From a virus, in the IMG/VR virus record IMGVR_UViG_3300028840_001400, positions 1 through 49,997 of that record: 49,997 nucleotides of DNA. One strand, 5' to 3'. The position numbers and the translations under genes were made by a program. The notes beneath the pieces are model-generated. The model was not told where the DNA came from. It saw only the letters and a list, made by a program, of their open reading frames with translations, and did no database searches. Position 1 is the stretch's first letter; the number at the start of each line of letters is the position of its first letter. Below are positions 11,397 through 21,139 of this stretch, piece after piece.

Positions 11397-12086
11397 ATGA
11401 AGAAAGCCAATCGCCGAGGAGGGAGCTTTTCGTTTGAGAAGGTAAAGGACTTCGAGGGGCATATCGGGTTATCGATTCCGAATTACGATATCCTCTTTAA
11501 GACGATCCTCGGGATCGCCGATTACTTTCTCGAGAAAGAAGCGATCGTCTACGATATCGGGTGCTCTACGGGGAAGCTCCTCCGGGCGCTTAAGCACAAG
11601 GGCCGGAAGGAGGGATTCGATAACTCGAGTAATCTGCTTCCGATCAAGGTCGAAGAGGGAAGCTCGGCGATCGCCCCGGACGGGATCCAGTACCATAACG
11701 TAGATCTTAACGACTACGAGCCGTCCTTCGCGAACGCCTGCCTTGTCCTCTCGCTCTTTACTCTCCAATTCTTAAGCCGAGACGCGAGAGATACGATCGT
11801 CGAGAACGTCTCGCGCGGCCTCCGACGCGGCGGCGCTTTTATTATCGCCGAGAAGGTATTCGCTCCGACGTCGAAGGCGCAGGAGATCTTTACCTTTACC
11901 CATTACGACTACAAGCGCGAGGGCTTCTCGGCCGAGGAGATCCTCCGGAAGGAGATATCGCTCCGGCGTATGCTCCACCCCCTAACCTCCGAGGGATTGG
12001 TCGATCTCCTCAATGGATACGATCTTAAACCGATCCCGTTCTGGAAATTCCTTAACTTCGAGGCGTGGCTGTGCATAAAGGATTGA
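11397..12086 (+). CDS. cmoA: CmoA-like carboxy-S-adenosylmethionine (Cx-SAM) synthase
   Basis: CmoA converts SAM and prephenate to Cx-SAM. This 229-residue protein follows E. coli CmoA nearly end to end: IPNYDILF (Tyr30 like CmoA Tyr39), VYDIGCSTG (51-59, SAM motif I), FDNSSN (74-79, like IDNSPA), VLSLFTLQFL (117-126), GGAFIIAEKVF, THYDYKREGFSAEEI, and a C-terminal LNFEAWLCIK. The first ~20 residues of CmoA are missing. CmoA Arg199, which I recall as a carboxylate contact, aligns with Glu186, with Arg190/191 nearby, so the carboxylate pocket may be rearranged. No CmoB is encoded. The next genes are an amide-forming ligase and a cytosine methyltransferase with an altered cofactor pocket. An ordinary SAM methyltransferase is the alternative. 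Confidence 0.82.
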   Translation: MKKANRRGGSFSFEKVKDFEGHIGLSIPNYDILFKTILGIADYFLEKEAIVYDIGCSTGKLLRALKHKGRKEGFDNSSNLLPIKVEEGSSAIAPDGIQYHNVDLNDYEPSFANACLVLSLFTLQFLSRDARDTIVENVSRGLRRGGAFIIAEKVFAPTSKAQEIFTFTHYDYKREGFSAEEILRKEISLRRMLHPLTSEGLVDLLNGYDLKPIPFWKFLNFEAWLCIKD

Positions 12087-12883
12087 AAGAGATCTTCCTC
12101 GAGGAGGTCGTCAAGATCTCCGACGGCGCCGGACCGGTAGCGATCGCGTTATCGTCCGGGATAGATAGTACCGCCGTCGGGCTCGCACTATCTTCGCTCG
12201 GGAAGGCCGTTCACGCCTATACCTTCTACGTCGAAGGAGTAAAGAGTCAAGATCTAGTCTACGCGCGGAAGACCGCCGAGACCTTCGCGTGGGAGTTTAC
12301 GCCCTGCGAGATCCCGAGAGAGGTAGATAAGAGTCTCGTTCTAAGGCTTATCCGAGATCTCGGGCTCTCGAAGAAAACGGATATCGAATGTAGCTATCCC
12401 TTCTTCTTCTTGATCCCGCGAGTAGAGGAGCGCGTTCTTATAACCGGCTCGTGCGCGGACGGCCACTTTTGTATCTCGAAGAAGGGTATGATCCATTACC
12501 GAGGATCCGTAGAGAAGACGGACGAATATCGCCGGAGCCTATTCGGCAATAACAATTACGCTCAGACGAAGACGCTCGCCGAGCTCGGGGCGCTCCGGGG
12601 GATCTCTATCGATACGCCCTATAATAAGCCGACGATAATCGAATACTTCCTCGGCAAGAGCTGGGCCGAGGTAAACAAGCCGAAGCAGAAGCAGCCGATA
12701 CTCGATCTATTCCCCGAGTCGTTCGCGGCGATAAAGACGTTTCCTCATACTAATCTTCAATGCGGCGATAGCCAGATCCGCGAGCTCTTCGAGCCGCTCC
12801 TCCGAGACGAAGAGCTTAACCGCTACGGCCGAAAGCGCGTCCTTGATCTCTACCGAGATCTCTCGAGGGAGGTTCTTATATGA
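12065..12883 (+). CDS. Asparagine-synthetase-like ATP pyrophosphatase (amide ligase), no glutaminase domain
   Basis: This 272-residue protein starts with GTG and overlaps cmoA by 22 bases. The PP-loop is ALSSGIDST (residues 28-36). A second conserved block, VLITGSCADGHF (124-135), corresponds to the G-x-G-A-D-E-x-F region of AsnB, and residues 190-230 resemble the AsnB C-terminal substrate region. AsnB proteins adenylate a carboxylate and replace AMP with an amine. The N-terminal Cys2 glutaminase domain is absent, so ammonia or another amine would be used directly. Sandwiched between a Cx-SAM synthase and a DNA methyltransferase, its likely carboxylate substrate is carboxymethylcytosine in DNA or the free nucleotide. 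That substrate is inferred. Confidence 0.78.
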   Translation: MAVHKGLKEIFLEEVVKISDGAGPVAIALSSGIDSTAVGLALSSLGKAVHAYTFYVEGVKSQDLVYARKTAETFAWEFTPCEIPREVDKSLVLRLIRDLGLSKKTDIECSYPFFFLIPRVEERVLITGSCADGHFCISKKGMIHYRGSVEKTDEYRRSLFGNNNYAQTKTLAELGALRGISIDTPYNKPTIIEYFLGKSWAEVNKPKQKQPILDLFPESFAAIKTFPHTNLQCGDSQIRELFEPLLRDEELNRYGRKRVLDLYRDLSREVLI

Positions 12884-14274
12884 GCGCCTATAAGCCGCCG
12901 AGCCTAGACGAAGTAAGGAGGGCGTCCGAGTGGGGCCTCTTTAACGTCGTCTCTCTCTTCGCCGGGTGCGGCGGGAGCTCGACCGGTTACCGGCTCGCCG
13001 GGGGGAAGGTCCTCGGCGTCAACGAGTTTATCGAAGCGGCCCGGGAGACTTACGCAGCGAACTACCCGGACGTTACGATAATGCCCGAGGATATCCGGGA
13101 GCTTAAGGGCGAAGAGATCCTCCGGCGCGTCGGCGTCAAGGCCGGAGAGCTCGACGTCCTCGACGGATCACCGCCCTGCGCGAGCTTCTCTATGGCCGGG
13201 AAGCGCGAGGAGCACTGGGGGAAGAAAAAGCAATACTCCGAGACTAAGCAACGAACCGACGATCTCTTCTTCGAGTTCGCGCGGATAATCAAGGAGACGC
13301 AGCCCCGAGTCTTCGTAGGCGAAAACGTCAAAGGCCTAACCCTCGGGAAGGCGGGAGATCTCCTCGGCTCGAAGCAGTCCGGGCTCTTCGGCGAGCACGA
13401 GGATACGATCCTCTTTCACCTCGAGAAGCTAGGCTATCGCGTAGACTATAAGGTCCTTAACGCGGCCGACTACGGCGTCCCGCAGACGCGCGAGCGCCTC
13501 TTCCTTGTCGGAGTCCGGGGAGATCTCGGAGTAGATCCGAGCTTCCCGTCGCCGACTTATAAGGGGAAGTGGGTAACCCTCCGCGCGGCGCTTGAGACGC
13601 TCGAGCAACACGCCGCCGAGATAGACGACGCGGCGATCCCCGAGAAGTACGAGGTCTATAAGTACCTCAAGATGATGAAGCCCGGGGAGAGCGCCTCGAA
13701 GTATCACCCGAAGGGATCCTATTTCTCGCTAGTCCGCCTCGAGTGGGACAAGCCGGCAGGGACAGTCCAGCAGTCTCACGGCGCGAAGTCGATCGCCTCC
13801 GGCTCTATTCACCCCGAGGAGAACCGGAAGCTCTCGATCCCCGAGCTTAGACGGATCTCTTCCTTCCCGGACGACTTCGTCCTAACCGGGACCTTCGAGC
13901 AACGCTGGGAGCGGATCGGCCGCGCGGTCCCGCCGCTACTAATGAAGGCGATCGCTCGTAACGTCTGGAGTAATATCCTCGAGCCGCTTAAGGAAGGTAC
14001 GGAGGCGAGCGGGGACGCGGAGCCGGGAGACGCGCTCGCAGACGCGGCTACCGATCCTCCCGCCGAGGCGACTCACGACTTAACCCCGGAAGAGGAAGAG
14101 ATCTCGCGGGGCGCTTCCGTCGGGAACGAAGCCTTCGAGAGAGCGATACGGCCGAGAGGCGACGGCGCTAGAGACGCCTACGATAACGCCCTCGGCGAAC
14201 AGCTAGATGAGATCTTCGGAGAAGAAGATCCGGACGCCCCGGACGGCCCCGGCGATCAAGAGTCAATGTTCTAA
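12880..14274 (+). CDS. C5-cytosine DNA methyltransferase with Arg in motif X; predicted carboxymethyltransferase
   Basis: This 464-residue enzyme overlaps the ligase gene by 4 bases (ATGA). All catalytic motifs are present: I (LFAGCGGSS, 26-34), IV with the nucleophile Cys100 (GSPPCASFS), VI (GENVKG, Glu148), VIII (QTRERL, 202-207), IX (RISSFPDDF) and X (IGRAVPPLL, 346-354). In normal enzymes motif X is G-N-A/S-V; here Asn is Arg348. In M.MpeI the same Asn changed to Lys lets the enzyme use Cx-SAM and make 5-carboxymethylcytosine. With a CmoA homologue in the same operon I predict a natural DNA carboxymethyltransferase. The C-terminal 95 residues are an acidic extension of unknown role. Plain methylation remains possible. 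Confidence 0.9.
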   Translation: MSAYKPPSLDEVRRASEWGLFNVVSLFAGCGGSSTGYRLAGGKVLGVNEFIEAARETYAANYPDVTIMPEDIRELKGEEILRRVGVKAGELDVLDGSPPCASFSMAGKREEHWGKKKQYSETKQRTDDLFFEFARIIKETQPRVFVGENVKGLTLGKAGDLLGSKQSGLFGEHEDTILFHLEKLGYRVDYKVLNAADYGVPQTRERLFLVGVRGDLGVDPSFPSPTYKGKWVTLRAALETLEQHAAEIDDAAIPEKYEVYKYLKMMKPGESASKYHPKGSYFSLVRLEWDKPAGTVQQSHGAKSIASGSIHPEENRKLSIPELRRISSFPDDFVLTGTFEQRWERIGRAVPPLLMKAIARNVWSNILEPLKEGTEASGDAEPGDALADAATDPPAEATHDLTPEEEEISRGASVGNEAFERAIRPRGDGARDAYDNALGEQLDEIFGEEDPDAPDGPGDQESMF

Positions 14275-14283
14275 GGAGGATAG

Positions 14284-15192
14284 ATGAATGGCCTGGATTT
14301 ATTTAGCGGAATCGGAGGAATCGCAGAAGCCTTATCGCCATGGGTCGAAACGGTCGCCTATTGTGAAAACGACTCCTACGCTACCGCCGTCTTACTTTCG
14401 AGAATGTCGCGAGGTGAAATACATACCGCCCCGATATGGGACGACGTTACGACGCTCCGGGGGAAAGACCTCCCGGAAATCGATATTATTAGCGGAGGAT
14501 TCCCCTGCCAGGACATCAGCATCGCAGGGCGCGGAGAAGGCTTGGAAGGAAAGCGAAGCGGCCTATTCGGAGAAATCATTCGCCTTGCTGGCGAGATACG
14601 ACCACAATTCCTGTTCCTGGAGAATGTGCCAGCTATCACTTTTCGAGGACTGTCCGCAGTTGCCGGAGAGATTTCCCGGCTACGGTATGATTGTAGATGG
14701 GGGCTGTTATCCGCTTACGATGTGGGTGCGCCGCACAAAAGAGAACGGTGGTGGTTGCTGGGTCGGGACACCAAGAGCAACCGAAGCAGTAAGGTCAGAG
14801 AGGTTCCGGAAGGGAAGGTTGCCAACCCCGGAAGAAGTGGTGGCGATGTACCCCACACCAACCAAAGAGGACTACCGCCGAAGAGGCCCGAACAGCAAGC
14901 AACAAGGTCTGCCGGAAGTGATACACAAGGAGCAGATGTGGCCGACCCCGACGAGCCGAGACCACAAGGACGGAAGCGCAAAGGCGTGTCGGAATGTGCC
15001 GGACAACGGATTGTTGGGGAGGGTAATCCACGAGCCGGGGAAAGATACCCTTGGGCAACTGAACCCGGTGTGGGTCGAGTGGTTAATGGGCTACCCTTTA
15101 GAAGCAACCGCCTTATGTGCCTGGGCAACAGCGTGGTACCGCAGTGTGCGCGGGAAGCGTTCGAGAGATTAGTAGGATTAAAGGAGATATAA
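14284..15192 (+). CDS. C5-cytosine DNA methyltransferase (canonical motif X)
   Basis: This 302-residue Dcm-type enzyme has motif I LDLFSGIGG, motif IV GGFPCQDIS with Cys75, motif VI LENVPAIT, motif VIII KRERWWLLG, and motif X CLGNSVVPQ with the usual Asn282. It should therefore use ordinary SAM and make 5-methylcytosine. Residues 160-262, between motifs VIII and IX, are low in complexity and poorly structured. The ribosome site AAGGAGGA serves two ATGs, 14284 and 14288, in different frames. From about 14580 the DNA loses the genome's TG/CA avoidance. It follows the predicted carboxymethyltransferase by 9 bases and may protect against host restriction. Confidence 0.88.
   Translation: MNGLDLFSGIGGIAEALSPWVETVAYCENDSYATAVLLSRMSRGEIHTAPIWDDVTTLRGKDLPEIDIISGGFPCQDISIAGRGEGLEGKRSGLFGEIIRLAGEIRPQFLFLENVPAITFRGLSAVAGEISRLRYDCRWGLLSAYDVGAPHKRERWWLLGRDTKSNRSSKVREVPEGKVANPGRSGGDVPHTNQRGLPPKRPEQQATRSAGSDTQGADVADPDEPRPQGRKRKGVSECAGQRIVGEGNPRAGERYPWATEPGVGRVVNGLPFRSNRLMCLGNSVVPQCAREAFERLVGLKEI
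14288..15172 (+). CDS. Overlapping +1-frame ORF within the methyltransferase gene
   Basis: A 294-residue frame is fully embedded in the cytosine methyltransferase gene. Its ATG is 4 bases after the methyltransferase ATG and better spaced (7 bases) from the shared ribosome site. Its sequence has a recognisable series: SPARTSASQGAEKAWKE, CSWRMCQLSLFE, LPERFPGYGMIVDGGCYPL, MYPTPT and MWPTPT repeats, and LNPVWVEWLMGYP. I remember this series (SSWRT, WPTPT, WVEWLMG) from phage proteins annotated as hypothetical or as methyltransferase pieces. Either this is true dual coding or the family is a frame artefact of methyltransferase DNA. No function can be assigned. Confidence 0.45.
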   Translation: MAWIYLAESEESQKPYRHGSKRSPIVKTTPTLPPSYFRECREVKYIPPRYGTTLRRSGGKTSRKSILLAEDSPARTSASQGAEKAWKESEAAYSEKSFALLARYDHNSCSWRMCQLSLFEDCPQLPERFPGYGMIVDGGCYPLTMWVRRTKENGGGCWVGTPRATEAVRSERFRKGRLPTPEEVVAMYPTPTKEDYRRRGPNSKQQGLPEVIHKEQMWPTPTSRDHKDGSAKACRNVPDNGLLGRVIHEPGKDTLGQLNPVWVEWLMGYPLEATALCAWATAWYRSVRGKRSRD

Positions 15193-19915: not shown

Positions 19916-20129
19916 CGAGACGCTAGTCTTAAAGATCCCGGCGGCGGCGAACGAGCTCGGGGAGGCGGCGAAGAAGATCGAAGAGGCGGCGGCGGATATT
20001 AACTCCGCGCTCCTCAAGCTCAAGGCGTCGCAGGAGGCGAACGCCCGAGCTAGCTCCGAGCTCCGGGAGGCCGTCGAAGAACTCAAGCGCCGCGCGAATA
20101 TACGCGACGGGGAAGGAGGCAAGAAGTAA
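19908..20129 (+). CDS. Short coiled-coil protein
   Basis: This 73-residue protein is a nearly continuous amphipathic helix rich in Ala/Glu/Leu, with heptads visible from ANELGEAAKKIEEAAADINS to the end. It overlaps both neighbours and follows another coiled-coil gene, so the two may form a complex. Function unknown. Confidence 0.66.
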   Translation: MDNETLVLKIPAAANELGEAAKKIEEAAADINSALLKLKASQEANARASSELREAVEELKRRANIRDGEGGKK

Positions 20130-21139
20130 TGTCCGAGCAAAAGGAGAAGCTCAAGATCTACGCGATCAAGACTAAGGCCGGTCTATACCTAACCGATCGG
20201 CTTAAGAGCGATAGCTGGTCCTCTTCGACTCCGCTAGCCGTTCTATTCTTCGATAACAAGAGGCCGAGGCCTACGTTTCACAAGGACTGGATCTTCGTCT
20301 CGAGCGAGCCGAAGAAGATCGAGAAGACGCTCCCGGAGAAGATCGTCAATATTCGCTGGGAGAGGAAGGATATCGAGGGAGCCGAAAAGCTCCCGAAGGT
20401 AATCCGCGAGGAGGAGTTCGAGAAAGATGTAGACGGCTACGCCTGCGGCCACCTTTATAAGCTAACCCAGACCGACTTCTACGAAAAGAAGTATGATAAG
20501 GAACTTCCGGGCCGCGAGAAGATCCCCTTCGAGCTCGAGATAATCCTCGAGATAGCTCGCGTCAAGGAATACAAGGGCTGGAGCTACCCGATCCTTAAGG
20601 ATAATTGGGCCCGGGTCCCCGACGCTACGATAACCGAGAAGGATCCTCGCTTCGGTCTAATCCGCGAGATGTCTATCCCTTCTATCCTCTTACCCGAGGG
20701 GCCGTGCGCTCTATCCGCCGAAGAGACCTTCGCTATTATTCGCGCTTACGTCAAGGAGCATATCGATCCTCGATACGCCGAGATCTCTTCGGACTATCGC
20801 TTTAGCTTTACGGTCTATAAGAGGATCCGCGTCGCCCAGCCGATTCCCTATACCGCCGAGGAGGGGCGCGGCCGACGCAAGCGTAAAGTAACCCGCTATA
20901 ACGATTATCGGAAGTCGGAGGTCCTAGATATCTCGACTGACGGGAAGTATGGCGAGATTCCGATTCCTTTCCGGGGCGACGACCGAGACGACCTCAAGCG
21001 GAATATCGATAAGTTCCTCAAGGATCTTATCAAGAAGATCAACGAGCCGATAGTCGAGTGCGCTAAGTGTATAGGCGCCGGAGTCGTCGTCGAGAAGATA
21101 AAGATCGGCGCCGGGGCCGAGGAAGGAGGAGCGAAATGA
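20129..21139 (+). CDS. Large hypothetical accessory protein with C-terminal CxxC
   Basis: This 336-residue protein is the largest of the 16-26 kb accessory run. The N-terminal half is beta-rich (LKIYAIKTKAGLYLTDRL...AVLFFDNKRP). Residues 220-260 have a basic patch (GRGRRKRKVTRYNDYRKSE). The C-terminus has VECAKCIGAGVVVEKI, possibly half of a zinc knuckle of the CxxCxGxG type. It overlaps both neighbours. I do not recognise the family and see no catalytic motif. Confidence 0.74.
   Translation: MSEQKEKLKIYAIKTKAGLYLTDRLKSDSWSSSTPLAVLFFDNKRPRPTFHKDWIFVSSEPKKIEKTLPEKIVNIRWERKDIEGAEKLPKVIREEEFEKDVDGYACGHLYKLTQTDFYEKKYDKELPGREKIPFELEIILEIARVKEYKGWSYPILKDNWARVPDATITEKDPRFGLIREMSIPSILLPEGPCALSAEETFAIIRAYVKEHIDPRYAEISSDYRFSFTVYKRIRVAQPIPYTAEEGRGRRKRKVTRYNDYRKSEVLDISTDGKYGEIPIPFRGDDRDDLKRNIDKFLKDLIKKINEPIVECAKCIGAGVVVEKIKIGAGAEEGGAK

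Follow-up and report, generated by a model that had tools for sequence, protein, structure and literature searches.

The 49,997-base virus record IMGVR_UViG_3300028840_001400 of IMG/VR, the whole of which forms the stretch under study (hereafter the window), in all probability carries a CmoA-CmoY-CmoX-type operon for the hypermodification of cytosine in phage DNA, a reading to which we assign a probability of roughly 88%. Three overlapping open reading frames on the same strand (11397-14274) encode, in this order, a CmoA-like protein, an AsnB-like ligase and a C5-cytosine methyltransferase. Profile matches to terminase, portal, major head and tail genes identify the record as that of a tailed phage.

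Such a pathway was described by Yang et al. (Nat Commun, 7 December 2025) in the cyanobacterial Synechococcus phage S-B43 (PMC12783734). There, SpCmoA was experimentally found to produce carboxy-S-adenosylmethionine (Cx-SAM) from SAM and prephenate, SpCmoX to transfer the carboxymethyl group to C5 of cytosine in GC motifs, giving 5-carboxymethylcytosine with Cx-SAM as the only accepted cofactor, and SpCmoY, an AsnB homologue, to join glycine to 5-carboxymethylcytosine (PMC12783734). The resulting 5-glycylcarboxymethyl-dC (5gcxmC) was detected in S-B43 phage DNA, and carboxymethylated DNA showed resistance to HhaI (PMC12783734). Our literature search on natural 5-carboxymethylcytosine found no further paper. 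The first-pass annotation of the window had inferred that a complete natural version of the pathway exists here; given the S-B43 work, an earlier natural example is already on record.

By homology to the S-B43 orthologues, all three reactions can be proposed for the window virus. The CmoA homologue would carboxylate SAM with prephenate to give Cx-SAM. The CmoX homologue would flip a cytosine in the phage DNA, with Cys100 attacking C6 and Arg348 holding Cx-SAM, whose carboxymethyl group would move to C5 to form 5-carboxymethylcytosine. The CmoY homologue would then join an amine to the new carboxylate by ATP-dependent amide formation, and the modified base, as suggested by the orthologues, may shield the phage DNA from restriction enzymes. 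This scheme of a Cx-SAM synthase, a carboxymethyltransferase and a carboxylate conjugation, already outlined in the first-pass annotation, matches the S-B43 steps, and the window genes are alike in sequence, order and catalytic residues.

Organization of the operon

The gene for the CmoA homologue, the predicted Cx-SAM synthase, occupies positions 11397-12086 of the plus strand (229 aa, ATG start) and was assigned from TIGR00740, phrog_4752 and homology to SpCmoA. It is followed on the same strand by the CmoY homologue, an AsnB-type ATP-dependent amide ligase without a glutaminase domain (12065-12883; 272 aa, GTG start; PF00733, SpCmoY homology and fold), and by the CmoX homologue, the predicted DNA cytosine C5-carboxymethyltransferase (12880-14274; 464 aa, ATG start; PF00145 and structure 8YF3). 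The profiles thus bear out the gene order, coordinates and families given previously. Of the two overlaps reported at that stage, the 4-base one between the ligase and CmoX genes is firm (ATGA at 12880-12883), whereas the 22-base one between the CmoA and ligase genes holds only if the GTG at 12065 is the start; with an in-frame TTG at 12083 as the alternative start, the overlap would measure 4 bases, as it does between the S-B43 genes. Decay or silence of the operon in the window virus appears extremely unlikely, as no supporting point was found and the three frames are intact, the catalytic residues kept and the genes tightly overlapping.

A second, ordinary C5-cytosine methyltransferase gene (14284-15192, plus strand; PF00145, 7e-36; phrog_363, 4e-57) with the motif X sequence GNSV begins 9 bases 3' of CmoX, and a RusA resolvase gene comes next. 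This methyltransferase probably belongs to one transcription unit with CmoX, which does not imply a role in the pathway.

The CmoX homologue retains the Cx-SAM contacts of SpCmoX

The third protein matched the DNA_methylase profile PF00145 with an E-value of 7e-58, and a sequence search of all solved structures returned 8YF3, the structure of SpCmoX, as the top hit (3e-79; 43% identity over 390 columns). In this 1.9 Å structure, the motif X arginine Arg350 touches the carboxylate of Cx-SAM (PMC12783734). The window protein carries the motif IV sequence Ser-Pro-Pro-Cys (codons 97-100, 13168-13179) with the catalytic cysteine C100, and the motif X sequence Gly-Arg-Ala-Val-Pro-Pro (codons 347-352, 13918-13935), in which Arg348 stands where Asn is usual. 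In the alignment, F25, E47, F48 and D69 of SpCmoX correspond to F27, E49, F50 and D71, S95-P96-P97-C98 to S97-P98-P99-C100, and R350 to R348, so that all nine cofactor and catalytic residues named in the SpCmoX crystal structure are kept. The basic motif X residue noted earlier is Arg348.

Residues 1-369 form the catalytic part of the protein. The remaining 95 residues (370-464; 13987-14271) make up an acidic C-terminal tail with 28 Asp/Glu and 6 Lys/Arg, which is missing from SpCmoX.

The CmoA homologue and its linkage to arginine-type methyltransferases

The CmoA homologue shares 35% identity with SpCmoA and matched phrog_4752 with an E-value of 4e-46; its top solved structure by sequence search was E. 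coli CmoA (4GEK, 4e-17). Against NCBIfam TIGR00740 it reached 78 bits (E=9e-22), below the curated cut-off of 193 bits. This score bears little on CmoA identity, because the biochemically proven SpCmoA likewise stays under the cut-off with 116 bits; the TIGR00740 cut-off appears not to fit phage CmoA.

The role of bacterial CmoA is in the cmo5U modification of tRNA, and C5 methyltransferases normally use SAM. The three genes might accordingly do separate work, the methyltransferase making 5-methylcytosine from ordinary SAM, CmoA serving the tRNA wobble base and the ligase being unrelated. Viral loci were fetched with profiles in two sets of 80, one using only CmoY and the other only CmoA (when the window CmoY and CmoA served as single query sequences, scans of viral contigs gave no matches). 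CmoA was present in 66/80 of the CmoY-fetched loci and a C5 methyltransferase in 74/80; among the CmoA-fetched loci, 71/80 had a C5 methyltransferase. All readable methyltransferases carried arginine in motif X (69/69 in CmoY loci and 68/68 in CmoA loci), and none had lysine, although many loci are near-copies and the total of 137/137 does not stand for 137 independent cases. As a control, 80 loci were fetched by the ordinary second methyltransferase. Their 83 readable enzymes had Asn in 81 cases and Arg in none, a result partly biased toward Asn since GN at motif X was prescribed by one of the two patterns used for the search, and neither CmoA nor CmoY was found in any of the 80 control loci. 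The contrast is complete, and the motif X Arg of CmoA- or CmoY-linked enzymes is not due to chance. A search for such a link between CmoA and methyltransferases that are basic at motif X had been proposed in the first-pass annotation.

This linkage led us to reject a tRNA role for the window CmoA. The SAM-dependent reading of the methyltransferase is further opposed by the recurrence of the operon across viral loci and by the behaviour of SpCmoX, which takes only Cx-SAM and whose R350N variant accepts neither Cx-SAM nor SAM (PMC12783734). Overall, we consider separate functions for the three genes very unlikely and favour their joint action in cytosine hypermodification. Given its near-perfect link with CmoA and CmoY, the motif X arginine can be used as a reliable marker when such systems are annotated.

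Several loci depart from the common arrangement. CmoA-linked methyltransferases whose motif IV reads GFPC or GTPC and whose motif X reads GRTITI, GRAVTV or GRAMSV (IMG/VR loci L092-L167, and L013, L014, L044, L072 and L076) fall in the tree into lineages apart from the SPPC-type CmoX, one of them combining GFPC with GRTITI; in L128 a ParB-domain protein is encoded by the adjacent gene that follows. The published survey of viral data listed 5,615 candidate CmoX (defined by SPPC plus Arg350), 4,257 CmoA and 2,251 ligases (PMC12783734), and its CmoX count is likely too low, because the GFPC/GTPC enzymes also carry the motif X Arg. Outside the profile scans, the Staphylococcus phages vB-SscS-F1 (L003:5302-7820) and SPbeta-like (L007:5010-6709) have CmoA beside a C5 methyltransferase with GGVIN in motif X, that is, with Gly rather than Asn or Arg, and vB-SscS-F1 also has CmoY. 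For the CmoY homologues of L036, L042, L046, L052 and L056, CmoA and a methyltransferase were not found in the fetched DNA; the genes neighbouring CmoY in L036 encode a DNA polymerase of family B and a recombinase resembling UvsX. In Erwinia phage pEa_SNUABM_3, one CDS of 709 codons (L257:992-3121), some 16 kb away from CmoA and CmoY, encodes the whole CmoX-like protein. Compared with the window CmoX, this protein contains a large in-frame insertion, which could be an intein or a recognition domain of increased size.

The ligase and the identity of the amine

The ligase matched the Asn_synthase profile PF00733 (2e-10) with its synthetase domain only, and the domain profile search found no N-terminal glutaminase domain of glutamine-dependent asparagine synthetase in its 272 residues. 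Its top match in annotated phages was SpCmoY (36.8% identity over 95%). Sequence search returned no solved structure; by fold, the AlphaFold model (pLDDT 95, from a 46-sequence alignment) came nearest to beta-lactam synthetase 1mc1 and asparagine synthetase. The PPi-loop SxGxDS is present as SSGIDS.

Glycine is most likely the amine joined by the window CmoY, judging from its relationship to SpCmoY. Among the 41 positions at which 90% of its relatives agree, the window ligase keeps 37, and all 37 are identical in the glycine enzyme SpCmoY. We speak of glycine as likely rather than established because a tree built from 87 ligases pairs the window protein with that of locus L008 and places it, with other loci, outside the S-B43 clade. 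It also differs from the residues typical of the family at S31, L91, F115 and Y155, and ligase clusters with other active-site residues were noted in the published survey (PMC12783734). These features leave some room for the same pathway with a different amine (another amino acid, a polyamine, or ammonia, which would give 5-carbamoylmethylcytosine), an alternative that we regard as possible but doubtful; if true, the DNA of the window virus would carry a base so far undescribed. Of the end products considered in the first-pass annotation, an amine conjugate agrees with membership in the CmoY family, while the plain amide 5-carbamoylmethylcytosine appears less likely, because the ligase belongs to a family free of the glutaminase domain whose tested member uses glycine.

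Related loci bear on the same question. Among the methyltransferases placed in the tree, the one closest to that of the window (56% identity) is found in locus L088, whose CmoA is also the best match from the viral scan. Between these two genes, L088 contains a different AsnB-type ligase, and L090 and L091 have no ligase between CmoA and CmoX. The ligase is evidently a module that can be exchanged, and glycine is therefore the leading, not the proven, substrate.

Other features of the window

An open reading frame of 294 codons (14288-15172; phrog_1008, 1e-24) lies in the +1 frame of the ordinary methyltransferase gene 14284-15192 and overlaps it over nearly the full length. In 85 related viral methyltransferases, 161 stops were observed in the +1 frame against about 500 expected when codons were shuffled among synonymous sites, while 181 further genes from these loci had 2,138 observed against 2,085 expected. 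A profile of the +1 proteins matched 145 open reading frames, all overlapping a methyltransferase frame in the same relative frame, with a conserved LNPxWVEWLMGWPxGWT segment. This looks like widespread conserved dual coding in the ordinary methyltransferase family; the literature search on +1-frame dual coding in a methyltransferase gene found no paper.

Further along the window, positions 20129-21139 strongly match the anti-Gabija defence inhibitor Gad1 (PF25705, 1e-62), and the phage therefore has at least one further counter-defence gene.

Comparison with known systems

The window and S-B43 share gene content, the order CmoA-CmoY-CmoX, overlapping genes (by 4 bases in S-B43, with similarly tight spacing in the window), the motif IV SPPC, the motif X Arg and a glutaminase-free AsnB-type ligase. 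The window phage is nevertheless a tailed phage of another sort, in which the operon is followed immediately downstream by a second, ordinary C5 methyltransferase gene; its proteins are only 35-43% identical to those of S-B43, its CmoX bears the 95-residue acidic tail, and its CmoY falls outside the S-B43 clade. The recently discovered hypermodification through a carboxylate handle would thereby be confirmed in a phage unlike the original cyanophage, and the divergent CmoX/CmoY pair could differ in DNA motif or amine.

A second comparison is offered by the gene cluster of Streptomyces phage TurkishDelight, which comprises ParB, a methyltransferase, a glutamine-amidotransferase AsnB and CmoA. 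Like the window, it combines CmoA, a CmoX-like methyltransferase (the two methyltransferases are 44% identical) and an amide ligase, but its ligase is annotated with the glutamine amidotransferase domain that the window ligase lacks, and ligases of that type are expected to use ammonia (PMC12783734).

Finally, the engineered M.MpeI N374K resembles the window CmoX in having a basic residue in place of the motif X Asn, a change that allows the use of Cx-SAM in M.MpeI. Unlike the window enzyme, it is a product of engineering with Lys rather than Arg, acts on the CG motif and has no dedicated CmoA or ligase.
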